DNA from: a virus
DNA length: 27,137 nt
IMG/VR virus record: IMGVR_UViG_3300043786_000408
Location: 1 to 27,137 of that record
Reading direction: 5' to 3' (one strand)
The stretch's first letter is position 1. Each line of letters starts with the position of its first letter. Shown here in pieces: positions 1,403 to 27,137 of the stretch. The notes beneath the pieces are model-generated. The model was not told the origin of the DNA. It did not search any database and saw only the letters and a list, made by a program, of their open reading frames with translations. A program made the translations under genes and the position numbers.

Positions 1403-1839
1403 AGCGTCACCTCCCTGGCTCCGAGGAGTCGAGCGGCACGAGCACAGAACCGCGACCACAGGCCACAGAACCGCGACCACAGGCCGGACCTGACCCGCAT
1501 CGGTGGGTCGGCCTTGATGTCTCGCCGGTAGTCGCCTTGGCCCAGGACGGCCAGAGGCGCCTCGGCCGCCTGCTTCTTCAGTTCCTTGACCTGCTTCAAG
1601 ACCAGGGCAGTGGTCTGGGTGATCACAGCATCGGCAGCCAGCAGCACGAACCGCGGCTCGATGCGACCTGCTGGGAAGGTTTCAGCCAGGGCCCTGACCA
1701 CGTCCCCGGCGTGATGCTCGATGACCAACTCGACCTTGCGAGCGTCAAGCCCGCGGCCTTCGTTCCGCAAGTCCTGAATGGCGAGGCCCACGTCCTCGAC
1801 CACCTGCCCGAATCGTCCGACCTGTTCCTGCGTTGTCAC
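1399..1839 (-). CDS. Hypothetical protein downstream of integrase
   Basis: 146 residues from a GTG at 1839. The start is supported by a strong GAGGAG six bases upstream. The integrase frame overlaps it by 95 bases. The protein is mostly helical, acidic in the first 100 residues, with a basic, Trp/Cys/Arg-rich tail. The tail contains a perfect 7-residue repeat (GLWSRFC twice) encoded by a 21-bp tandem repeat. I do not recognise a family. The stop overlaps the GTG of the next gene, so the two are probably co-translated. Confidence 0.6.
   Translation of the reverse strand: MTTQEQVGRFGQVVEDVGLAIQDLRNEGRGLDARKVELVIEHHAGDVVRALAETFPAGRIEPRFVLLAADAVITQTTALVLKQVKELKKQAAEAPLAVLGQGDYRRDIKADPPMRVRSGLWSRFCGLWSRFCARAARLLGAREVTL
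1443..1484. repeat. Two tandem copies of a 21-bp unit
   Basis: Bases 1443-1463 and 1464-1484 are identical 21-mers beginning CACAGAACCGCG. They lie in frame inside the hypothetical gene at 1399-1839 and encode GLWSRFC twice. The unit length keeps the frame, as expected for replication slippage in a coding region. Confidence 0.9.
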
Positions 1840-3115
1840 TGGCGGCTCCTCGCTGCATCTGCAGCACGGCCAGCTCCAGCAGGAGCGTGGCCGCATGAAT
1901 CAGCCGCTCGGTCCCCACGTCGGTGGGGGTGTGGGTGCAAATCCTGTCACCCCGACTCACGAGAGGCTCGCGTCGATTGACGCGGGCCTTTTCGTTTGTC
2001 GGAGCAACAGTAACCCGCGAGCGGCCGAGAGCACGCAGAAGACCAGCCAGGTTGTTTGTGGATTCAGAGCCGTGGGGCGCTGCGACCTGGCTGGTCGTCT
2101 TGGTGCTCTCGGTGATGGTTGCGCCCATGGCCATGTCTGAATCCACGGGGAACCTATCGGCTGCACGAGGTTTTGGTCGACAACCATTTCGATATTTTTC
2201 CGATCTCTGCTCGACCGCTTCCCGCAGACGTTCCTCCCGATGACGCAAGTAGCGGTGGGTCTGGTCGATAGAGCGGTGCCGGGCCAGCCGCTGGATGAGT
2301 TCCGGGGCCACCCCAGCCTCGAAGGATTCGGTCACGAACCCCACCCTAAATCTGTGCCACTTGCCACGGCCGGTGATCCCGCACGCCTTGCAGTCGGCCT
2401 CCAGGGCCTTGTCGGTGACAATGGTGGGAAACACCAGCCCGGTGCCACGTCCTGCCAGCATCTGCCGCAGCATGCCACACGCTGCCACCGACAACGGGAT
2501 CGGGTCAGCGCGTCGGGCCTTGTCGTGGGTCACCACCATGGTGCGGGCCTGCAGGTTAATGTCCTCCCATCGCTGGGCCCGGGCCTCGCCACGTCGCAGG
2601 CCGGTCAGGCTGAGGAACCTGTACAGGTTGGCCCGGTTGGCGGCCGACGCCCGGTCGGCTGGCTTGCGTCCATCCTTGGCCATCCGTTCCGCCTGGGCGA
2701 TGAGCGCGGCCACCTGCTCGTCGGTGAACGCGTCAGCGCCCTGCCGGGTACGTCCCCTGGGCATCGGGAGCGAGGCCCATGGGTTTGCGTCCAGCACGCC
2801 CTGGACAACCATCCAGCCGCAGAACCGGCGGCACGCGCTCGCCCGGTTGCGGATGGTCTGTGGGCTCAGGGCATGACCCATCACCATGTCCCGAAGCCAC
2901 GCGACGCACGCATCAGGTGTCGCGTGTTCTCGGGAATGTTGCAGCCATGAACGGACCCACCGGGCCGCCTGCGCCGCGTGGGCAGTACTGTGTCCCTCGA
3001 CTTCGCGCGCGTAGACCTGCCAGGACTCGACCTGGTCGAGCAAGCCGGTCAACGGCCGACCCCGAGTTGCACTACCTGAATCCACGCGAAACTCTACGGT
3101 GACCCGGATCACCAT
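1745..3115 (-). CDS. int: Tyrosine integrase with long C-terminal extension
   Basis: A site-specific tyrosine recombinase for integration and excision. With ATG at 3115 it has 456 residues. A core-binding domain spans about 24-115 and the catalytic domain about 128-300. Catalytic residues are visible: Arg174 in TGLRRGE, Lys199 in HDKA, His254 and Arg257 in HRFR, His280 in LARH, and the nucleophile Tyr289 in HRYLRH. Past Tyr289 the frame stays open for about 165 residues of low-complexity, basic sequence without recognisable fold. A candidate attP core (1937-1960) and a hairpin (1964-1987) lie inside this tail, so integration would separate the last ~65 codons from the gene. The tail also overlaps the next gene. 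No good Shine-Dalgarno is seen at ATG 3115; a GTG ten codons downstream is an alternative start. Confidence 0.9.
   Translation of the reverse strand: MVIRVTVEFRVDSGSATRGRPLTGLLDQVESWQVYAREVEGHSTAHAAQAARWVRSWLQHSREHATPDACVAWLRDMVMGHALSPQTIRNRASACRRFCGWMVVQGVLDANPWASLPMPRGRTRQGADAFTDEQVAALIAQAERMAKDGRKPADRASAANRANLYRFLSLTGLRRGEARAQRWEDINLQARTMVVTHDKARRADPIPLSVAACGMLRQMLAGRGTGLVFPTIVTDKALEADCKACGITGRGKWHRFRVGFVTESFEAGVAPELIQRLARHRSIDQTHRYLRHREERLREAVEQRSEKYRNGCRPKPRAADRFPVDSDMAMGATITESTKTTSQVAAPHGSESTNNLAGLLRALGRSRVTVAPTNEKARVNRREPLVSRGDRICTHTPTDVGTERLIHAATLLLELAVLQMQRGAASDNAGTGRTIRAGGRGRGPRHSGLAERRPRA
1937..1960 (+). other. Candidate attP core: 3' end of a tRNA-Pro gene
   Basis: The plus strand reads as a T-loop (TGCAAAT, 1936-1942), the 3' half of a T-stem (CCTGT), a 7-base acceptor 3' strand CACCCCG and discriminator A. 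The G72 end (implying C1:G72) with A73 is the known hallmark of bacterial tRNA-Pro, and CCTGTCACCCCGA is a common ending of such genes. The 5' part of the tRNA is absent: the bases upstream do not form an anticodon arm with a 7-base loop, and the 5' T-stem strand pairs only by G-U. A tRNA 3' fragment beside an integrase is the usual form of attP. The crossover probably lies in ATCCTGTCACCCCGACT. Confidence 0.68.
1964..1987 (+). terminator. Rho-independent terminator directly after the tRNA 3' fragment
   Basis: GGCTCGCGTC, loop GATT, GACGCGGGCC, then TTTT. The stem has ten pairs, one of them G-U. It lies a few bases downstream of the tRNA-Pro 3' fragment, in tRNA orientation. The natural reading is that the phage carries the host tRNA terminator as part of the att identity segment, so that the tRNA stays terminated after integration. 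It falls inside the antisense integrase tail. Confidence 0.75.
3099..3112. promoter_or_regulatory. Imperfect 14-bp dyad at the integrase start
   Basis: GTGACCCGGATCAC matches its own reverse complement at 12 of 14 positions and lies directly next to the proposed integrase ATG (3113-3115). Its position would suit an operator over the integrase start. It is the only copy I found, so the call is tentative. Confidence 0.25.
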
Positions 3116-3198
3116 GAGGGCGGACAGGATACGAAATTCACGAAAACGGCGGCTGACCACCATTGCTCTCGGACGGGCCTGCGGTTTATCGTGCGAGC
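3116..3198. promoter_or_regulatory. Divergent intergenic region between integrase and the plus-strand genes
   Basis: 83 bases separate the integrase (minus) from the membrane-protein pair (plus), so promoters for both must lie in or near it. A weak plus-strand candidate is TTGCTC (3164-3169) with TTTATC 16 bases later. I see no clear repressor operator repeats and no good Shine-Dalgarno for either gene. Confidence 0.35.
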
Positions 3199-3381
3199 AT
3201 GAAAGCAATCCTGCTCATTCTTCTGGGAACCCTGATTGCGTTGCCGGGTCTGTTTGCGGTTGTCGCCGGTGAAGGCGGCGTGGCCGTCAAGGTCGGCGGC
3301 AGCCTTGCCATCGCAGTCGGCGTGGGTGTCTTCCTCTACGGTCTGGTCCTCAATCACAAAGACCACACGCAGAAGCGGTAG
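3199..3381 (+). CDS. Small two-helix membrane protein (60 aa)
   Basis: 60 residues starting MKAILLILLGTLIALPGLFA. Residues 3-23 and about 31-51 are hydrophobic enough to span the membrane. The C-terminus is short and charged (NHKDHTQKR). This gene and the next, two bases downstream, are the only genes on the plus strand, divergent from the integrase and convergent with the late operon. That placement fits genes expressed from the prophage, for example superinfection exclusion or membrane modification, but no family is recognised. Base composition and open frame agree with coding; there is no strong ribosome site. Confidence 0.6.
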   Translation: MKAILLILLGTLIALPGLFAVVAGEGGVAVKVGGSLAIAVGVGVFLYGLVLNHKDHTQKR

Positions 3382-11317: not shown

Positions 11318-11616
11318 GCCCAAACCCTCATCGGCACCGCAGGCGGCGGGTTAAGGATCGGCAGTTCCTCCAGCACCTCCGGCGGCAGTTCACCCGCTAC
11401 CCGCAGGTTTGCGTGGAACCGAGCATCCGTGACAGGCTCGCCGTCCACGATGCGAGTCACCGGGCCGATCCAGCCGAGATCAAGCCGGATGCCGTTGTAG
11501 TCGATCACAGTGCCGTCGATGATCTGCCCGTCCACGTTCGGGATCGTGATGCCTGCGGCGAGGAACGCATTCGCCATCGCGGCCTCGGTGGTGGTGCGTA
11601 GGTAGTAGTCGCTCAT
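11314..11616 (-). CDS. Hypothetical head-module protein (100 aa)
   Basis: 100 residues, ATG at 11616 overlapping the upstream stop (ATGA). Mixed helix at 10-22 (TEAAMANAFLAAGIT) then strands with IIDGTVIDYNGIRLDLGWIG and a proline-rich C-terminus (PILNPPPAVP). It lies between the lectin-like protein and the head-tail adaptor. No family recognised; a minor structural protein is the simplest guess. Confidence 0.6.
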   Translation of the reverse strand: MSDYYLRTTTEAAMANAFLAAGITIPNVDGQIIDGTVIDYNGIRLDLGWIGPVTRIVDGEPVTDARFHANLRVAGELPPEVLEELPILNPPPAVPMRVWA

Positions 11617-12896
11617 GTAACCAGTCCGTTTAGGGTTGCGTTGGGCAATCGCTGCGGCCAGAACTTCAGCGTCCTTATGTGCATGAAGTTGTCGGCGTTC
11701 GGATTGAAGATGATCTTGTCCGCGTCGAAGCCGCTGCCCAGTGCCGTGGTCGTGGTTTCCGATCCGATAGTCGTGCCGGTGTTGACGTACATGGCGGAGT
11801 TGCCTGTCTTCACGGCGAGCGCGTGCTTGAACACGGTATTTACGGTTGCGTTCGTGGCTGGCGACGCCGTGAAGTCATACAGAGCGACCGCATTAGCACG
11901 AATCACGCTGCCTGTCGTGACATAGCCACGCGATCTTGATGTGCTGCCGCTATTGCGATTCAACCACAAGAATTGATTGGTCGCCGGAGATCGCGTGATG
12001 TCGCCAGTCCACAGCACGGTGAACTCCGACTGATTAGCGGGCCACCATGAGGAGAAGTTGGTTCCCGTAATGTCGCACGAATCCGCCGCTCGCTGCACGG
12101 TGCTTGTGCCCGTAGGGATGTACGAGGTGGCAGCGGATGAGGCTTCTAGTTGTGCGCCCCAAACGGTCATCGAGTTGGTGTTGTCACCGACCCAGTTCGT
12201 TGCCGGATCTTGCTCGGTGTTTTGCACTACCAGCCAAACATCGGTACTGGTTAGCGATGCCGTCCATGTCATCGTGACGCGATACCACCCATTCGCATAG
12301 GGCGTGATGGTCCGCGTGTTGGTGATGCCATAGCCCGACGATGAATTGCCGGCCAGATTGAACGAAGCACGAGTCTGCGGCCCTGTCGTGACCAATCCAA
12401 GAACGCCATATCCTGATGGCTTGGCAAAAACCGACATCGTGTAGGTCGTGCCGCTCACAATCGTGTTCGCGCCGGTTCCCAGATAATGCAAGCCGCTCGT
12501 CGTGTTCGGGATCAACTTGACCGCAGTAGTTGCGCCGTCAGGAGATGATTGGCCTGTCCATCCGGTCGTGTTCAGATTGGTTCGCACACCGTAACCCGGG
12601 AATGTTGCCGTGCCCATGTCCTCGCTTCGTGGCAGCAGGTTCGTGACGCTGCCCTCCAGAAGCAGCCCGCGAGGAGCGAGCGTGGTCGGGTCGTAGTCGA
12701 AGCGGGCTTTCGTCGGATCGTTCGTCGCCGCAGCCGTGACCTGCTGAACCAGCCCGCTGGAATTGATGAACGTGGCGATGCTGTTTCTCGTGTAGGTGAA
12801 CCGCGAGTCCAGCGATGACATCGTGGTGAAGTCCAGCGACAGCGTGGAGCCGTCGCCGCGACGCAGCATGAAGGGCGCGAACTTGCTGGCCTTCAT
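11613..12896 (-). CDS. Lectin-like structural protein in the head module (head fibre/decoration candidate)
   Basis: 427 residues, ATG at 12896 overlapping the upstream stop (ATGA). An N-terminal section has the widespread phage fibre motif LDSRFTYTRNSIATF, then TTLAPRGLLLEGSVTNLLPR. A jelly-roll-like carbohydrate-binding section follows, with SGTTYTMSVFAKPSG, GWYRVTMTWTA and the very common end VWGAQLEASSAATSYIP. The C-terminal part (about 280-427) resembles a ConA/LamG-like lectin fold. Such proteins often occur as tail fibres, but here the gene lies between the capsid and connector genes, so a capsid-bound fibre or decoration protein is more likely. Confidence 0.75.
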   Translation of the reverse strand: MKASKFAPFMLRRGDGSTLSLDFTTMSSLDSRFTYTRNSIATFINSSGLVQQVTAAATNDPTKARFDYDPTTLAPRGLLLEGSVTNLLPRSEDMGTATFPGYGVRTNLNTTGWTGQSSPDGATTAVKLIPNTTSGLHYLGTGANTIVSGTTYTMSVFAKPSGYGVLGLVTTGPQTRASFNLAGNSSSGYGITNTRTITPYANGWYRVTMTWTASLTSTDVWLVVQNTEQDPATNWVGDNTNSMTVWGAQLEASSAATSYIPTGTSTVQRAADSCDITGTNFSSWWPANQSEFTVLWTGDITRSPATNQFLWLNRNSGSTSRSRGYVTTGSVIRANAVALYDFTASPATNATVNTVFKHALAVKTGNSAMYVNTGTTIGSETTTTALGSGFDADKIIFNPNADNFMHIRTLKFWPQRLPNATLNGLVT

Positions 12897-13093
12897 CGCC
12901 GCGCCCCCTTCTTTGCAGCCCGGCAGCATTCGGGCTTCACGCATGCCTCCGGCTGGTCCGGGTGGAAGTCAGCACGCTCGGCCCAGCCGAGGGACAAAAA
13001 CTCGATGGCACGGGCATCGGGCAGGTCGTAGACCAGACCCTCGCCGTAGCCCTCGCTAGCCATCCCGACGGTCTGCAGCATCTTGACCTTCAT
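12893..13093 (-). CDS. Hypothetical small head-module protein (66 aa)
   Basis: 66 residues. The ATG at 13093 is chosen because GAGGAC lies just upstream; the open frame extends to 13150, but that part runs through a perfect hairpin and is unlikely to be translated. The core MKVKMLQTVGMASEGYGEGL and a following DLPDARAIEFLSLGWAE resemble small phage proteins found after capsid genes. The C-terminus has Cys residues (ACVKPECC) and a basic tail. Coupled to the lectin-like gene by ATGA. Confidence 0.65.
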   Translation of the reverse strand: MKVKMLQTVGMASEGYGEGLVYDLPDARAIEFLSLGWAERADFHPDQPEACVKPECCRAAKKGARR

Positions 13094-13155: not shown

Positions 13156-14481
13156 TCAGTTCTTGCCACGCAGGAATCGGAACGCGTCCGTCTGCGTGTA
13201 CTTGATGTCAACCCGGCTGGTGCAGACCATGCCGATGTTGTCCTCGTCCGCGAAGCGCTCGTTGAGCACACGCAGCGAGAACTGGCTGCGCTGTCCAATC
13301 ACGAGGAAGTCGAACGCACCGATCAGGCCGCAGATGCCGCCACCGGTGTAGCCCGTCGACGTGGTGGCCGGATCGGGCACGTAATGCGACGCGTAGATCG
13401 GAATGCCCATCACGCGGTCGGGCTCGCCCAGGACGCCGCTCGGCTGCCAGAAGTAGGTGGTTGTCGAGCTGGACAGAATCGGCGCCTGCCGGATGAACTG
13501 CAGCACCTTGTCGCTCACCAGGATCGCGCAGCTGGGGTGCTGGCGATACTGACGCGGCAGGCTGTACACGAGGTCCTGAATCTCAGCGGCAGTGATCGCC
13601 GTGTTAGCGGCCAACTGCTTGCCGACCGACGGACCCGTCGAGGCAGTCGTGGCAGACGGTCCGACCGTCAGGATGCCAGTGGGCTGTCCGGACGCGCCGG
13701 TGCCCACGAGGAAGCCCTGCTCCTCCTTCTCCGCAAAACCCTTGGCGAAGGAGTTGGTCAGGATGTTCTCCAGGCTGAAGCCCGGGCCGCGGGCGGGGGC
13801 GTCCTCGGCCAGCTCGCGGCTGACCTTGGCGAGACCCGCCAGCTTCTTGGCGTTGAGGACCACGCTGCTGAAGGTGGGGTTGGTGCTCAGCGAGTCAGTG
13901 ATTGAGCTGCCTTCCGTGGTCCAGTTGACCGAAGCCACGTTGCTCTCGATCACCAGGTCACGCTTCCATGACCCCATCGGCATGATCTGGGCGAGTTTGC
14001 GCAGGGTCACGACCTTCTGCAACTGCTCGAAGATCTTGTCGCTGAACTCGGTCGGGGCGATCACATCGCCCAGGCCCGTGCCACCCTCGCTCAGGGCGCG
14101 CTGCTCGTTCGGCCCGATCAGCTCGCCGCGGCGGAGGTAGGAGTCGAACGCATCCCGGTACTCGTCGGTATCGGCCCACGAGCCCCAGCGGGTGCCCTTG
14201 TTGGCCTTGACCGCCTTGGTCGCGGAGCGACGCTCGGGAGCGTCGGGCGACTCAACCCAGCCCAGGTTGGTGTCCTTTTGGGCCAGCTGCATGAGGCTCA
14301 CGTTCCGCTCGCGCTGCTCCTGCAGCTTGCGGTACTCGGCCTGCATCGCGTCGAAGCGCTGCGTGTCCTCGGCGCTCATGTCGCCGCCGTTCTCGTTCGC
14401 CGCGTCGATCATCGACTGCATCTCGCGGTAGAGGGCGCCCATCTTCTCGACGAGCCCTCGGTAGGTGTCCTTGTCGTTCAT
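13156..14481 (-). CDS. HK97-fold major capsid protein with N-terminal delta domain
   Basis: 441 residues, ATG at 14481 with AAGGGA upstream. Residues 1 to about 70 are a charged coiled coil (VEKMGALYREMQSMIDAAN...), the delta/scaffolding domain that the prohead protease removes in HK97-type phages. The HK97 fold runs from about 105: N-arm, the SEGGTGLGDVIAPTEFSD start, E-loop region with VNWTTEGSSIT, spine helix with KVSRELAEDA, and the P-domain and A-domain to the C-terminal ERFADEDNIGMVCTSR. It is one of two tandem paralogues; with the delta domain, this copy looks like the main shell protein. Confidence 0.92.
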   Translation of the reverse strand: MNDKDTYRGLVEKMGALYREMQSMIDAANENGGDMSAEDTQRFDAMQAEYRKLQEQRERNVSLMQLAQKDTNLGWVESPDAPERRSATKAVKANKGTRWGSWADTDEYRDAFDSYLRRGELIGPNEQRALSEGGTGLGDVIAPTEFSDKIFEQLQKVVTLRKLAQIMPMGSWKRDLVIESNVASVNWTTEGSSITDSLSTNPTFSSVVLNAKKLAGLAKVSRELAEDAPARGPGFSLENILTNSFAKGFAEKEEQGFLVGTGASGQPTGILTVGPSATTASTGPSVGKQLAANTAITAAEIQDLVYSLPRQYRQHPSCAILVSDKVLQFIRQAPILSSSTTTYFWQPSGVLGEPDRVMGIPIYASHYVPDPATTSTGYTGGGICGLIGAFDFLVIGQRSQFSLRVLNERFADEDNIGMVCTSRVDIKYTQTDAFRFLRGKN

Positions 14482-14505: not shown

Positions 14506-15756
14506 TCAGGACCGGTTTACGTTCAACACGCCTGAGGAATGGAGGAGAGCCCCGTCCGCCCGCACGCTGGCGACGAAGGCTGTGGAATCGGTGTCCGCGT
14601 ACCGCTCGCTCAGACGCGTCACGGTGAAACCCGCGAAGTTGGTCACGAGGAGGTACTTGCTCGGATCGAAGAACATCACCAGCGTGTCGCCGCTGGCTGG
14701 AGTGGTATTGCTCAGCCGGTGATAAATCGTCGGCAGGCCCTCGACCGTCGTGCCCTGCTTCATGTTGCCCATGAACACCGGGAACAGCGGCGGGTAGAAG
14801 GTCGAGTCAAACGATGCGGTGAGTCGGCTGTTGATCACCGCGACGCTGTTGATCCACTGTTCGTACGCCATGGGCGACAGCGCCGAGTTGGTCGAGGCCC
14901 ACGCACCGGCCAGGATGTCGCTGGCCTTGTTGGTGGTCGCCACGCCGGTGCTGGCCGTGCGGCTGTACGCCTTGGCGGAATTGAACGCGCCCTGACACTC
15001 GCTCGTGCCGTTGCCAATCAGGATTTGACGGTTGATCTCGGTCTTCAGTTCGCTTGCAAACTCTTGCAACAGGAACTGCTCGACGCTAGCTGCGGCGGCT
15101 GAATCCTCCAGCAGCTCGTTGCTGACGCGGGCCCAGATGTGGACCTTCTTGAGGCCAAAGGTGTAGGTCGTGCTGCCGCCGCTGCCTTGCTGCGGCAGAG
15201 CAAACTGCGTGCTGCTGGTGTACGACTCGGTGCGCAGTCCCTCAGTGCCGATCACGGCAGTAGCGGTCGCACCCGAGCCGCCGCCGCCCGAGAAACTGAC
15301 CGTCGGAGCAGACGTGTAGCCGCTGCCAGCGTTGGTCACCGCAATGCTGACCACCGCGCCGCCGCTGATCGTGGCCGTGGCCGTGGCACCCGATCCACCG
15401 CCGCCGGTAAACGCCACCGTCGGGGCCGAGGTGTAGGCGCTTCCTCCAGCGGTCACGTCGATGCGTGCTACCACGCTGGTGTTATTGATGACATCCGAGC
15501 CGACGTAGATGGGGGCAGTGAACTTCTCGGAACTCTGCACCATGCGGACGCGGCTCAGGATTGCGTCCTGCTGCATCGCCGAGTCGATGAAGTCGATCCA
15601 GCCCGTGGGGGCGACGCCGCTGCCCAGGCCGGAGCCAGACAGGCTCAGGGCTCGGGTCTCAGCATCGCTGAGGCGGTTGACGCCGTGCCTCAGGTACGTC
15701 TGGAACAGGTGGCGGTACTCGTCGCCGCCGCGGTCCAGGGTTGTCTTGGTTGCCAT
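14506..15756 (-). CDS. Second HK97-fold capsid paralogue with repeat insertion
   Basis: 416 residues, ATG at 15756 with CGGAGA seven bases upstream. It aligns with the neighbouring capsid protein throughout: [38 protein letters not shown], and [14 protein letters not shown] near the C-terminus. It differs in two ways. It has no coiled-coil delta domain. At residues about 96-170, in the region corresponding to the E-loop, it carries two repeats of about 38 residues ([19 protein letters not shown] type). It could be a second shell protein, a vertex protein or a duplicated capsid gene used as decoration. It is the first gene after the 225-bp leader. Confidence 0.85.
15241..15471. repeat. Two ~115-bp coding repeats in the second capsid gene
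   Basis: The two units (residues about 96-133 and 134-172 of the paralogue) share [19 protein letters not shown]. Each looks like a small beta domain of the GSGY...P-V-F-GGGGSGA class found as repeats in many phage structural proteins. They are similar but not identical at DNA level. Confidence 0.75.
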
Positions 15757-15980: not shown

Positions 15981-16502
15981 TCACGCCGGGGGCATCAGCC
16001 GCAGACGCCTGGCCGGCGCCGGATGGGCCTCAGCCCGGGCCTCGACGCTTGTGCCCTCGTTGGCAGGGAACGTGACCAGGCTGATCTCCAGCAGGTCGGC
16101 GTCGCGGATGATCCGCAGCGGTTTGGCCGCGCCCTTCTCGTAGGTCTCGTCACGCACCTGAAACCCGAAGGAGCACTGCGTGACCACGCCGCTCTTAACC
16201 AGCTCGTAAGCCTCGCGTCCGCTCTGGGTGTCGGGCAGGGTGGCCTCGAAGCCCAGGCCGGTTTCATCGGCCCACAGACGGAGGTTGCCAGCCCGGACGC
16301 GGGCCAGCGGCTTGCCGGTGTCGTGGTTCCAAAGCAGGGCAATCTCGTCGGCCTGGTCCAAAGCCTTGTTGAACGCGGCTGGGTCCAGCCGTTCCTCAAA
16401 TGAGCCCATATCGTAAATGTCCCAGGTGGCGGCATAACCGCTGACGCGAAGGCCCTCGCCGCCGCTCAGGGTGCCCTTGTCTCGTGTCTCACGCTTGTGC
16501 AT
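15981..16502 (-). CDS. HK97-family prohead protease
   Basis: 173 residues, ATG at 16502, overlapping the portal gene by 14 bases. It matures the capsid by removing the delta domain. The pattern is clear: GYAATWDIYD, FNKALDQ, LLWNHD with catalytic His60, SGVVTQCSFGF with Ser111, and DLLEISLVTFPANEG with Glu139 as probable third member. The length is normal for this family. It sits directly between portal and capsid genes, as in HK97. The only nearby substrate with a scaffold domain is the capsid protein at 13156-14481. Confidence 0.92.
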   Translation of the reverse strand: MHKRETRDKGTLSGGEGLRVSGYAATWDIYDMGSFEERLDPAAFNKALDQADEIALLWNHDTGKPLARVRAGNLRLWADETGLGFEATLPDTQSGREAYELVKSGVVTQCSFGFQVRDETYEKGAAKPLRIIRDADLLEISLVTFPANEGTSVEARAEAHPAPARRLRLMPPA

Positions 16503-18249
16503 TGTTGATCTCCAGAAGGGGAAGGTTGAGCAGAGTCACCTTGAGCAAGTCCAGCAAGGCGGCCGCGGCCGATCCCGGCATGGACCGCAGCCCGTCCAGC
16601 TGCTCGCCCAAGGTCTTGATGTCGCCGATGCGGCTCCGCAGCATGCGGGCGTGCCGCACCAGGTCGGCGTCCAGCACGGCCACCGCCTGGGCCTCGTCAC
16701 CGAGCAGGCGGCCCAGCCCGGCCACGACCGACCGCAGGTCCGCATCGAGGCAGTCGATTGGTGGCGCCCACCGGTCGAGCTTCGCCTGCGTGCGCTGCCG
16801 AATCAGATACTCGGATAGTCGGGCCAGGTGACGCTGGTACGCAGCCTCGACCGCTGGACGAACCGCCGCAATGGCCACCGACGCGACCGCTGCACGGTCC
16901 TCGGCCTCGTTGTCATCGCTGGGGGCCTCAGGCTCGATCTCGTCGGGCTCAATGTCCACAGACGGCTCCTCAGCCTCCGGCGCCTCGGCGGGCGCGGTAG
17001 GCCCTTCAGCAGGCTGCTGGCCGGGGGCCTCGGTGTTCATGGGCACGCGGATCTGGTCGCCGCCATCGACTGCCGGGCGCCCTTCCAGAGCGCGGGCCTC
17101 GTTGACGGTCAGGATGCCGTTGGTGATGCCGACCGCGTACGCGTTGAACCGGGTGCTCATGTCAGCCCGGAGCAGGCTGTCGAAACTGATCCGGGTGCAG
17201 AATGCCTCGCCGCGGGGGATCAACTTCCGGCTGGCCTCCTGCTCCAGCCGGGTGGCCCAGCTGCTCAGGGTGTGCTTGACGAACTCGCTGTCGGCCTGCT
17301 CGGCGCTGTTCCAGCTGGTGGCGTCGGTGTCGCCGACCTTGTGGCTGGGAACGCCAAACGCCGCCGCGATCTGCTGGCGGCAATACTTCCGCATCTCGAT
17401 CAGGTCCGCGTCTCTAAAGTTGGGGGAGATGGGGTCGTACTTGAGCCCGTCCTCCAACACGGCCACGCGACCGGCGCGGCTTGCACCACCGTGTGCCGCC
17501 TGCCACGCCTCCCGCAGTCGCTTCGACGCCTCAGGGCTCAGTCGGCCAGGCATCTGCAGCGTTCCGGCCGGTACCGCGTTGTTCGCGTAGAACGTGGTCA
17601 CGTACCGCTGCACCTCCAGCTCCAGCCCGATGATGTCACGCATCAGGTGGATCGGCGGCACGCCGAGCACGCCCTCCATGGTGGGGCCAGTCAGGTGAAA
17701 CACGTCGTACGCTCGGAACCGACGCGCCGACTTCTCGGGATCGGTCCCGGTGTACCGGCCGCTAAAGACCTGGTAGTAGGGCTGGTTCGCCTCGTCGCGG
17801 TACATGCTCACGTAGTCCGGCCGCAGCAGTTCCAGGGCCACGGCACGCCCGGCCGCGTCACGCTGGATGTACGCGTAGCCGTTTCCAGCCAGCAGCGCGT
17901 TGGTGATCAGGGCCTCGCGGAACGAGACCGCGGTGTAGTCCTCGCCGGGCTCGTAGTTCAGCAGGCCGTAGAGCGGGTGGGCAGACTCAGCCACCTTGCC
18001 ATCGGCCGACTCGCGCATCACCTGCCACTCTAGCCGGGCCAGCGAGCCCGCGATCAGACGCACGCAACTGAACACGCTCGGGGCCTCCAGCGCCCGCGTC
18101 GGCGTGATCACCTCGCCGGTGTAGGAGTAGGTCTGGATATACGACTGCACGGAACCCGAGACGGGCTGGCCAATGGGAACCGTCTCCTCAAAGTCCGAGC
18201 GCGGCGGGGGGGCTCCGAGGTAGCGACGCAGTAGGTCTGTCAGACCCAT
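16489..18249 (-). CDS. HK97-family portal protein with long acidic C-terminal extension
   Basis: 586 residues, ATG at 18249, overlapping the terminase gene by 10 bases. It forms the dodecameric DNA channel of the capsid. The portal core spans to about 405 with APSVFSCVRLIAGSLA, NALLAGNGYAYI, FGVPSHKVGD and TSWNSAEQADSEFVKHTLSS. The core has the usual length of the family (about 400-430). Residues about 408-452 are a Pro/Glu/Asp-rich linker, followed by about 130 residues of helical sequence. The extension could be an inner-capsid or scaffold-like domain. No frameshift or fusion is apparent. Confidence 0.93.
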   Translation of the reverse strand: MGLTDLLRRYLGAPPPRSDFEETVPIGQPVSGSVQSYIQTYSYTGEVITPTRALEAPSVFSCVRLIAGSLARLEWQVMRESADGKVAESAHPLYGLLNYEPGEDYTAVSFREALITNALLAGNGYAYIQRDAAGRAVALELLRPDYVSMYRDEANQPYYQVFSGRYTGTDPEKSARRFRAYDVFHLTGPTMEGVLGVPPIHLMRDIIGLELEVQRYVTTFYANNAVPAGTLQMPGRLSPEASKRLREAWQAAHGGASRAGRVAVLEDGLKYDPISPNFRDADLIEMRKYCRQQIAAAFGVPSHKVGDTDATSWNSAEQADSEFVKHTLSSWATRLEQEASRKLIPRGEAFCTRISFDSLLRADMSTRFNAYAVGITNGILTVNEARALEGRPAVDGGDQIRVPMNTEAPGQQPAEGPTAPAEAPEAEEPSVDIEPDEIEPEAPSDDNEAEDRAAVASVAIAAVRPAVEAAYQRHLARLSEYLIRQRTQAKLDRWAPPIDCLDADLRSVVAGLGRLLGDEAQAVAVLDADLVRHARMLRSRIGDIKTLGEQLDGLRSMPGSAAAALLDLLKVTLLNLPLLEINNAQA

Positions 18250-19874
18250 GTGATGGTCCTTTCTTCGTAGACGCTGGGTCCGTGCTCGTCCTGCTTCTGG
18301 TGCAGCCAGGTGGCGAGCGCGGTGACGAGAGCAGCGAGCGGGTCAATGCGCTCCGTGCTGCTCGACTTCGATGGCTTGAGGTTCCCGGCCGGGTCCTGAT
18401 CCACGACCGTGTTGCTGACTGCCCAGTTCAGTAGGCAGTTGTCGGGGTGACGAATCTTCCGGCTGGTCACCAGGGCTTCGAGCCGCTTGCACGGTTCGCT
18501 GAGCGTGCGGAATCCTTGCCGCACCTCAAGCATGGGAACGCCCTCGGTGTAGAGCCCGCTGGCCAGCTGCGTGGCGTTCCATGGGTCGTAGCCGATGTGC
18601 CGCACCTGGTAGCGGCGGAACACGTCGCGGATGCGGGCCGCGATGTGGTCGTAGTCCACCACCGAGCCCGGCGTCGGGTGCAAGTGGCCCTTGCTCGCCC
18701 ACACGTCGTACGGGGCCCGGTCACTCCGGCTGCGCCGGCGGATGCCTTCCTCTGGGCACCAGGTCCACGTGAGCACGTCCACCGACCCGTCGCCGGCAGG
18801 AAACACCAGCGCCAGCGAAGACAGGTCCGTTGTCGTGGACAGGTCCAGCCCACCCCAGCACTCACGGCCCTGCAGGCTGTCGGCGTCCGCCGCGCTCGAC
18901 GCACACGCCGCCCAGGCGTCGCTGCTGATCCAGACCCGCTTGCTCTCGGTCCACTGGCACAGGTACAGCTGGCGGAACGTGGTCTCGTAGGTCGGCAGTT
19001 CCTTCGCCTTGTCGCACTCAGCCCGCAGGAACTCTTCCGACACGGTGACACCCAGAGAGGGGTTGCACTGCCGCCAGACCTTCGGGCTCTTCCAGTCCGC
19101 CTCGACCGGAGCGGAGAACAGCACCGGCATGAACGCCGGGTCCTCAATGACACCGTCCCGTACCTTGGCCGCGTAGTCGTGCAGTTCCCAGCACAGGCTT
19201 TCGCGGTCGTGTCCTGCGGTCGTGATGCAGACCTGCAGCGGCTGCTTGCGAGCACCCATCGAGGTCACCATCGCGTCGTACAGGTCGCGGTCCGCGAATG
19301 TGTGCACCTCGTCGAAGATCACGCATGACGCGTTCTTGCCGTGCTTGGTCCCCGCGTCGCTGCTCAGCACCTCCAGTTTCGACGTGCCGAACGTGATCAC
19401 GTTGCGGAACACCTCGACCTTCGACGCCAGTTCGGCGTTGCTCTGCACCATCTGCCTGCAGGCGTCTCCGACAATCGCCGCCTGGTCGCGGGCTGAGGCA
19501 CAGCAGTAAACCTCGGCTCCCTGCTCGTGGTCGCAGAGCAGCATGTAGAGCCCGATCGCAGCCAACAAAGTGCTCTTGCCGTTCTTCCGCGGGATCTCGA
19601 TGTACGCGCTGCGAAATCGACGGGTGCCGTCGGCACGCTTCCAGCACAGCAGGGCACCAAGCAGGTCGCGTTGCCAGGGCAGCAGCTCGAAGGGGCGGCC
19701 CGCCCACACGCCCTTGGTGTGACGCAGCAGCCCGAAAAACTGCGTCAGGCGCTGCAGTTCCTCCACGTCAAACCAGTCGCCCTTGCGGGCGGTGGCTGAC
19801 GCACTGAAGCCCGCGACGGGGGCCAGCTTGTCAGGCGATCTTCGGCTTAAGGAGCGCGTCGATGCCCGAGGCAT
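18240..19874 (-). CDS. Terminase large subunit
   Basis: 544 residues, ATG at 19874, overlapping the small-subunit gene by 44 bases. It packages DNA with an ATPase and cuts it with an RNase H-like nuclease. Visible: Q-motif-like LPWQRDLL, Walker A PRKNGKST (95-102), Walker B CVIFDEVH (184-191), and nuclease residues in GLDLSTTTDLSS (Asp344, Asp350) with a C-terminal RIDPLAALVTAL carrying the third acid. Length is typical of the HK97/P27-associated type. With the adjacent HNH gene this suggests cohesive-end packaging, but no cos site could be located by eye. Confidence 0.95.
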   Translation of the reverse strand: MPRASTRSLSRRSPDKLAPVAGFSASATARKGDWFDVEELQRLTQFFGLLRHTKGVWAGRPFELLPWQRDLLGALLCWKRADGTRRFRSAYIEIPRKNGKSTLLAAIGLYMLLCDHEQGAEVYCCASARDQAAIVGDACRQMVQSNAELASKVEVFRNVITFGTSKLEVLSSDAGTKHGKNASCVIFDEVHTFADRDLYDAMVTSMGARKQPLQVCITTAGHDRESLCWELHDYAAKVRDGVIEDPAFMPVLFSAPVEADWKSPKVWRQCNPSLGVTVSEEFLRAECDKAKELPTYETTFRQLYLCQWTESKRVWISSDAWAACASSAADADSLQGRECWGGLDLSTTTDLSSLALVFPAGDGSVDVLTWTWCPEEGIRRRSRSDRAPYDVWASKGHLHPTPGSVVDYDHIAARIRDVFRRYQVRHIGYDPWNATQLASGLYTEGVPMLEVRQGFRTLSEPCKRLEALVTSRKIRHPDNCLLNWAVSNTVVDQDPAGNLKPSKSSSTERIDPLAALVTALATWLHQKQDEHGPSVYEERTITWV

Positions 19875-26232: not shown

Positions 26233-27086
26233 AGTCGGATCTCCTTGCTGTTGTCAGGGTGATTGCTCAGGGCCTCGTGCCACTCCTCGAGGACCGCCCT
26301 GGTGCCCTCGGGTGTCTTTCCCTTCTTCTTGGCTGCGGCCAGTGCCTGCATGGCGGTGCGCCTCTGACCCGTGTTTCGGGCCAACGCAGCCACCTGCTCG
26401 GCCAGATCCTCAAGACTCACCTCGCCGCCATCCGTGGCGGCAGGGTCCGGCACCTGCTCCGTGCCGGTCGCAGCCCTCGGCGCCGGCGGGTCGCACGCCG
26501 CCAGCGCCGGGGCCACGGGAGCCGCCACGGGCCCATCCGACGTGGGACCCGCAGCAGTGAGCGCGTTCAGCCTGGCCAGCCGGTCAGAAGACACGGCACG
26601 CACAGGCTGCAGGGCAGGACCGCCATCGCCGATCTCCGTTTCGTCGGGGAAGCCCAGCCCGCAGATGCTCAGAGTGAGGCGACGCTTGGCCTTCGTCTCG
26701 GCCTTCATCATGGCGTTGGCAAGCTCGACACCACGCAGGCCGGTGATGCTCACCGACCCGCTTGCCTCGTCGCGTCGGCCCTCCTTGTCTTGGCCGCGCA
26801 CCGTGACCGTGTAGACGCCGCCCTCGGTGTCCGTGATCCGGCCCGTGATCCGCACGCTGACGCCGTGGATCTGACGCAGCTGCTCGCTGCAGTCCTTCGT
26901 GGCGTACATGACCAGCCGACCTTGGAACTGCTGGAAGGAGAAGGGCCGCGTGGCCGGGTTGAGGCCCAGCGACTGGCAGACGTGGTGCACGTAAGACACC
27001 CGCTGCTCAGGAGTCAGCCTCGACAGGTCACCAGAGACCACGATCTGGTCGATGGCCTGCATGTCAGTCAGTGGAACGATGCTCAT
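26229..27086 (-). CDS. RecT/Rad52-like ssDNA-annealing recombinase
   Basis: 285 residues, ATG at 27086 with GGAGG seven bases upstream. Typical segments are LTPEQRVSYVHHVCQSLGLN, YATKDCSEQLRQIHGVSV and ANAMMKAETKAKRRLTLSIC followed by GLGFPDETEIGD, known from a large group of phage annealing proteins. The last ~110 residues are a low-complexity linker and charged helical tail. Joining the ends, its ATG overlaps the exonuclease stop (ATGA) and its own stop overlaps the SSB start (GTGA). It would anneal strands exposed by the exonuclease. Which annealase superfamily it belongs to is uncertain. Confidence 0.78.
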   Translation of the reverse strand: MSIVPLTDMQAIDQIVVSGDLSRLTPEQRVSYVHHVCQSLGLNPATRPFSFQQFQGRLVMYATKDCSEQLRQIHGVSVRITGRITDTEGGVYTVTVRGQDKEGRRDEASGSVSITGLRGVELANAMMKAETKAKRRLTLSICGLGFPDETEIGDGGPALQPVRAVSSDRLARLNALTAAGPTSDGPVAAPVAPALAACDPPAPRAATGTEQVPDPAATDGGEVSLEDLAEQVAALARNTGQRRTAMQALAAAKKKGKTPEGTRAVLEEWHEALSNHPDNSKEIRL

Positions 27087-27137
27087 GCTGCCACCTCCAT
27101 GCCTTCCTCCAGTTGCCGACGCAGCCAGACAGGGACC
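27011..27137. repeat. Second copy of the 127-bp terminal repeat
   Basis: Identical to bases 1-127. The last 55 bases (27083-27137) hold the 3' end of the exonuclease gene that is complete at 73-915. Confidence 0.93.

Follow-up and report, generated by a model that had tools for sequence, protein, structure and literature searches.

Why would a phage with two HK97-fold capsid genes side by side carry a pair of Gly/Thr-rich repeats in one of them and not in the other? The question is raised by a 27,137-nt viral contig from IMG/VR (IMGVR_UViG_3300043786_000408), which was analysed whole and is called the window here. A sequence-only reading had placed the repeats in the E-loop of the second capsid protein (MCP2), at a point where its paralogue (MCP1) has a plain E-loop, and had proposed that they project from the capsid surface.

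A tandem pair of HK97-fold capsid genes

MCP2 and MCP1 follow one another at the end of a minus-strand gene order that runs terminase large subunit, portal, S78 prohead protease, MCP2, MCP1.

18240..19874, minus strand: terminase large subunit (PF20441 and PF03354)
16489..18249, minus strand: portal protein (PF04860, E 2e-97)
15981..16502, minus strand: prohead protease (S78), directly upstream of MCP2 (PF04586, E 2.9e-43)
14506..15756, minus strand: MCP2, second HK97-fold capsid protein, 416 aa, lacking a long N-terminal delta domain (PF05065, E 3.5e-20; TIGR01554; AlphaFold model against HK97-fold capsids, Z up to 13.9)
13156..14481, minus strand: MCP1, HK97-fold major capsid protein with a long N-terminal delta-like region (PF05065, E 1.2e-43; TIGR01554 over residues 16-437)

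The window is probably a complete genome. Its ends (1-127 and 27011-27137) form an exact 127-bp direct repeat, which points to a genome of 27,010 bp, in line with the 25-28 kb contigs of several relatives. Assembler word length is often 127, and an end repeat of 127 bp need not be biological. Elsewhere in the window, a tyrosine integrase (1745-3208, minus strand; PF00589) points to a possibly temperate phage; no host relative was found. A 443-aa ORF two genes past MCP1 (11613-12944, minus strand) matches the tail protein family PHROG 5939, is less conserved among relatives (30-48% in most) than its neighbours, and is perhaps another surface or receptor-facing protein. A 21-bp perfect tandem repeat of two copies lies at 1443-1485, within ORFs of both strands.

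Profiles and predicted structure both identify MCP2 as a capsid protein. It scores above the curated cut-offs of PF05065 (73 bits against 24.2) and TIGR01554 (81.8 against 27.5). An AlphaFold model based on 44 family sequences (mean pLDDT 70, pTM 0.62) has, by structure comparison, the HK97 fold with E-loop, spine helix, and P and A domains. Among the solved matches listed, all were HK97-fold shells: a gene transfer agent (6tb9; Z 13.9, 220 residues aligned, rmsd 4.4), the HK97 prohead (8fqk; Z 13.7) and, lower, Family 2B encapsulins (9bhu, 9bje and 9bix; Z about 12). A BFVD search also put capsids on top; a few large proteins ranked lower, matching over about 90-140 columns at 34-43% identity, and we take these matches to be due to the repeats.

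A two-repeat domain between the E-loop strands

The insert is an extra domain between the two E-loop strands of the HK97 fold. BLASTP aligned MCP2 with MCP1 in two collinear main segments (12-89 with 106-182, and 203-401 with 212-425), separated by 113 residues in MCP2 (90-202) and by 29 in MCP1. The AlphaFold model fills the longer gap with six strands (94-170), lying between the E-loop strand 79-82 and the returning strand 203-212. Alignment and model together thus bear out the contrast that had been drawn between the two paralogues, and the model maps the insert inside the E-loop rather than outside it.

15490..15723, minus strand: MCP2 N-arm and first E-loop strand, residues 12-89, alignable with MCP1 106-182 (BLASTP; model strands E71-74 and E79-82)
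15250..15465, minus strand: E-loop insert R98-I169, 72 aa, within six predicted beta strands (94-170) (repeat alignment, model)
15370..15462, minus strand: repeat copy 1 (self-alignment)
15250..15345, minus strand: repeat copy 2 (self-alignment)
15019..15150, minus strand: MCP2 residues 203-246, with the returning E-loop strand (203-212) and spine helix (222-246) (model; aligns with MCP1 from residue 212)
13849..13935, minus strand: MCP1 plain E-loop segment, residues 183-211, counterpart of MCP2 90-202 (gap between BLASTP segments)

Which way the insert points is a matter of analogy. Ten-residue means of pLDDT are 65-89 over residues 91-170 and fall below 50 in the junction 172-194; with the mean of 70 and the pTM given above, these values leave the orientation of the insert unfixed by the model. 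In HK97-type shells the E-loop runs over the adjacent subunit on the outside of the shell. Because of this placement in solved capsids, the insert is most likely displayed on the outer side of the head, as had been proposed.

The repeats are a protein feature and lie where they had been claimed in MCP2. The insert is rich in Gly, Thr and Ala and consists of two repeats with a period of 39 residues; 25 of 32 residues are the same in both, as are 68 of 96 bases. Their local alignment scores 123, against a mean of 37 for 10,000 shuffles (SD 6.2, maximum 70), and MCP2 is about 74-80 residues longer at this point than its repeat-less relatives. A repeat at the DNA level was rejected: DNA identity between the copies is only 71%, and two DNA repeat finders, at the settings used, did not report the insert. 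The whole MCP2 protein gave no Pfam Ig-like match, and at E up to 0.01 PF05065 was its sole hit; PF00027 gave no match, and we rejected a cyclic-nucleotide-binding-like domain such as that of Family 2B encapsulins. A search for solved structural relatives of the repeat returned one chance-like match (E 0.6), and a literature search for the motif by its letters found no paper.

The two-repeat module occurs in many virion proteins. Among PHROG profiles, the insert hits those of virion structural, tail fibre, baseplate and head-closure proteins, and tblastn with the low-complexity filter on found the repeat in 20 of 50,697 phage records. The annotated tail tube protein of Pseudomonas phage PseuP_224, of lambda type, is split by two copies of the repeat. 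We collected 66 repeat-bearing ORFs from outside the MCP1/MCP2 capsid family, 7 viral and 59 from species genomes. None matched the family capsid profile at E below 0.1 (best 0.15), a narrow profile that would miss remote capsids. For the four ORFs chosen for PHROG scans, the best matches were a tail sheath stabiliser (L089), a major tail protein (L136), a baseplate wedge subunit (L095) and a minor head protein (L128). With matches in tail, baseplate and minor head proteins, the module is, on its sequence, a promiscuous part of virion proteins and not a mark of fibres alone. The expectation that such repeats belong to decoration or fibre proteins is too narrow, since they also occur in proteins of the tail tube, sheath stabiliser, baseplate wedge, head closure and minor head classes, or in the profiles of such proteins.

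The same repeats also occur in 17 Chryseobacterium genomes, in ORFs of 369-378 aa (L098, L103-L106, L109-L111, L113, L116, L118-L120, L127, L130, L132 and L139). In L098, the one such ORF inspected, they lie near the N terminus. These may be cell-surface or secreted proteins, not phage proteins.

Distribution and history of the insert

The capsid gene pair is constant across the family. Scans of IMG/VR gave 60 distinct contigs with the MCP1/MCP2 capsid family besides the window. Profiles found both capsid genes in 46 of them; in 12 the contig or locus stops before the partner gene (4 without MCP1, 8 without MCP2), and in the other two, L039 and L052, a divergent capsid protein stands in the MCP2 position and still clears the Pfam cut-off (34.3 and 29.6 bits; cut-off 24.2). 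Every one of the 48 contigs that show both slots thus has the tandem pair. No capsid relative was confirmed in 84,980 species genomes.

The insert is dispensable in this family. The MCP2 E-loop could be read by eye in 48 contigs, a set that differs from the 48 with the pair, and L042 was given the state of L041, which has equal coordinates and score. The E-loop was cut off in 4 further contigs with MCP2, and 8 had no MCP2. Twelve of the readable E-loops carry the two-repeat insert, two carry another beta-rich insert and 34 are plain, including those of close relatives (MCP2 69-72% identical). Inserted modules were found in MCP2 only, of the two paralogues. In the repeat-less MCP2 of the L040-L051 clade, the Ser/Gly-rich E-loop segment is longer and additional residues follow the spine helix.

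Where it occurs, the insert does not vary in size. An MCP2 identical to that of the window (100%) lies on L001, a contig of another IMG/VR record, and 11 more contigs carry the 72-residue insert. Its presence in 12 other contigs rejects an assembly artefact. Repeat number, which the sequence-only reading had proposed comparing among relatives, is two copies in all 12, at 72 residues each time; a search for variable repeat number found none.

A different module probably occupies the same slot in L039 and L052. In these two proteins, about 70-80 residues ahead of the Pfam capsid match resemble tail-fibre and unknown phage families, with matches to PHROG 9370, 4711, 7765 and others at residues 94-176. 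The Pfam match of L052 starts at residue 175 and profile position 58; that of the window's MCP2 starts close by, at profile position 67. From these coordinates and a reading of the sequence, the E-loop of L039 and L052 likely holds a beta module unrelated to the two-repeat one. With hhalign, L039/L052 and the plain MCP2 profile aligned over only 78 C-terminal columns, and a structure model of L039 MCP2 was set aside at pLDDT 42.5. The MCP1 gene of L039 (3540-4823) looks near-identical to the window's MCP1 in its C-terminal part and diverged in its first part, which suggests recombination within the gene.

Phylogeny points to an old duplication and a single gain of the insert. We built a tree from 33 MCP2 and 11 MCP1 rows with the insert columns left out and L039 and L052 MCP2 not included. 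A branch with support 100/100 separates MCP1 from MCP2, which indicates that the capsid duplication took place before this phage group spread. All ten repeat-bearing rows fall on one side of a branch with support 100/99, so that one change in all accounts for them, and most simply the two-repeat insert was gained once.

Selection on codons indicates that the insert is kept functional. Over 45 pairs from 10 repeat-bearing genes, dN/dS as a ratio of sums is 0.17 in the insert, under purifying selection, against 0.11 downstream. Mean dN and dS are both higher in the insert (0.18 and 1.05) than downstream (0.09 and 0.81). These values bear on the idea that the insert is a neutral repeat expansion in a permissive loop, without function. 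Such an expansion would suit a module found in many unrelated proteins, but it sits poorly with two copies and 72 residues kept in all 12 other contigs and with purifying selection at a dN/dS of 0.17; we regard it as very improbable.

In several close pairs the insert is the most divergent stretch. L008 and L005 are 79.6% identical in it, against 95.5% before it, 96.5% after it and 94.0% in MCP1; L019/L004 and L002/L003 are exceptions. At fourfold silent sites of nine genes (L003 omitted as a near-copy of L002), divergence is greater in the insert for 24 of 36 non-independent pairs. Twelve of the 36 have an uncorrected p below 0.05, every one toward greater insert divergence; L004 and L002, for example, differ at 25 of 49 silent sites in the insert, against 29 of 175. 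Distant pairs, above all those with L023 and L024, have no significant silent excess or a slight deficit. This pattern is consistent with recombination that now and then replaced the insert, by exchange with unsampled phages, and may equally reflect locally raised change; no clear donor was seen for the diverged inserts.

Two-protein shells and a proposed role for MCP2

E-loop domain insertions are already known from T4, crassviruses and Family 2B encapsulins. In crAss001 gp32, passages of PMC10172136 describe a beta-barrel I-domain in the E-loop (about 100 residues, 79-180) that works with an auxiliary protein and lies on the exposed capsid surface in the solved structure. Like MCP2, gp32 combines an HK97 fold with a beta-rich domain in the E-loop; unlike it, gp32 is a single capsid protein, whereas the 72-residue tandem-repeat insert is found in one of two paralogues only. 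Family 2B encapsulins, as described in PMC12407261, are HK97 shell proteins with an E-loop domain, and some operons encode two of them. Their insert is the cyclic-nucleotide-binding-like PF00027, to which MCP2 gave no match; it is present in both proteins and belongs to a cellular compartment. The PseuP_224 tail tube shares with MCP2 a two-copy Gly/Thr module interrupting a repeated structural protein, in a different carrier.

T4 offers the likeness in gene content. Its hexamer protein gp23 and vertex protein gp24 share about 20% identity, and the loss of N-terminal residues amounts to 65 in gp23 and only 10 in gp24 (passages of PMC9958956). MCP1 and MCP2, known here from their genes, are likewise paralogous HK97 capsid proteins, about 22% identical. 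T4 differs in being a large prolate phage with a separate scaffold core and a chitin-binding-like extra domain (passages of PMC5957328, PMC3185693 and PMC9958956), whereas here MCP1 has no insert and has its own delta-like region, and the genome is about 25-28 kb. According to a 2025 paper (PMC12407261), no virus but T4 has two HK97 proteins that play separate roles. We recognised no paired HK97 capsid genes outside T4 in the titles, abstracts and some passages of the literature, and others may be in print. Less usual than an E-loop insertion is the setting: an ancient tandem HK97 capsid gene pair with modules found only in MCP2.

The likeness to gp23 and gp24, in identity and in the short N-terminal region of MCP2, raises a question of place. 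MCP2 could be a gp24-like penton protein, with modules at the vertices only, five per fivefold axis. MCP2 could equally sit in hexamers or mixed capsomers, and we treat the vertex placement as a real possibility on the doubtful side of even; it is compatible with either function considered below.

We consider it fairly probable that MCP2 co-assembles with MCP1 and displays its E-loop module outside the head, mainly for adhesion or display. MCP2 would be a second HK97-fold shell protein. Its N-terminal segment is short, and MCP1 would supply the long N-terminal, scaffold-like delta region, so that MCP2 probably needs MCP1 in order to assemble. A mobile two-repeat beta module would be plugged into the MCP2 E-loop, and as many copies would stand outside the head as there are MCP2 subunits. 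The main task of the module would be adhesion or display at the surface, and shell reinforcement might come as a by-product.

Reinforcement could instead be the main function. The module would then be an intersubunit clamp that bridges neighbouring subunits or capsomers and replaces a cement protein. In T4 and crAss001, according to the sources cited above, the E-loop insertions make the shell more stable, which fits a clamp as well as an adhesin, and the fixed length of 72 residues and the low dN/dS are in keeping with a clamp. We nevertheless prefer adhesion or display and think the clamp rather unlikely, because close relatives manage without the insert, because others probably carry an unrelated module at this place, and because the shell domains that the insert would need to fit change more slowly than it does in close pairs.

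The adhesion or display reading extends, tentatively, to the architecture of the head. The phage may build a two-component HK97 shell, by gene content the second viral case besides T4, though we would lean against this fuller picture at present. MCP2 would be its dedicated display subunit and the MCP2 E-loop a plug-in socket for different mobile beta modules, the two-repeat one in the window and another in L039 and L052, with MCP1 and the rest of the head unchanged.

Capsids are added here to the virion proteins that carry the two-repeat module, and its function becomes testable by comparing carriers. If MCP2 is incorporated, these phages would have a natural two-component capsid in a small phage, the longest contigs of relatives being 25-28 kb, and in the MCP2 E-loop nature would have tested a site that can take up folded modules while the shell still assembles.
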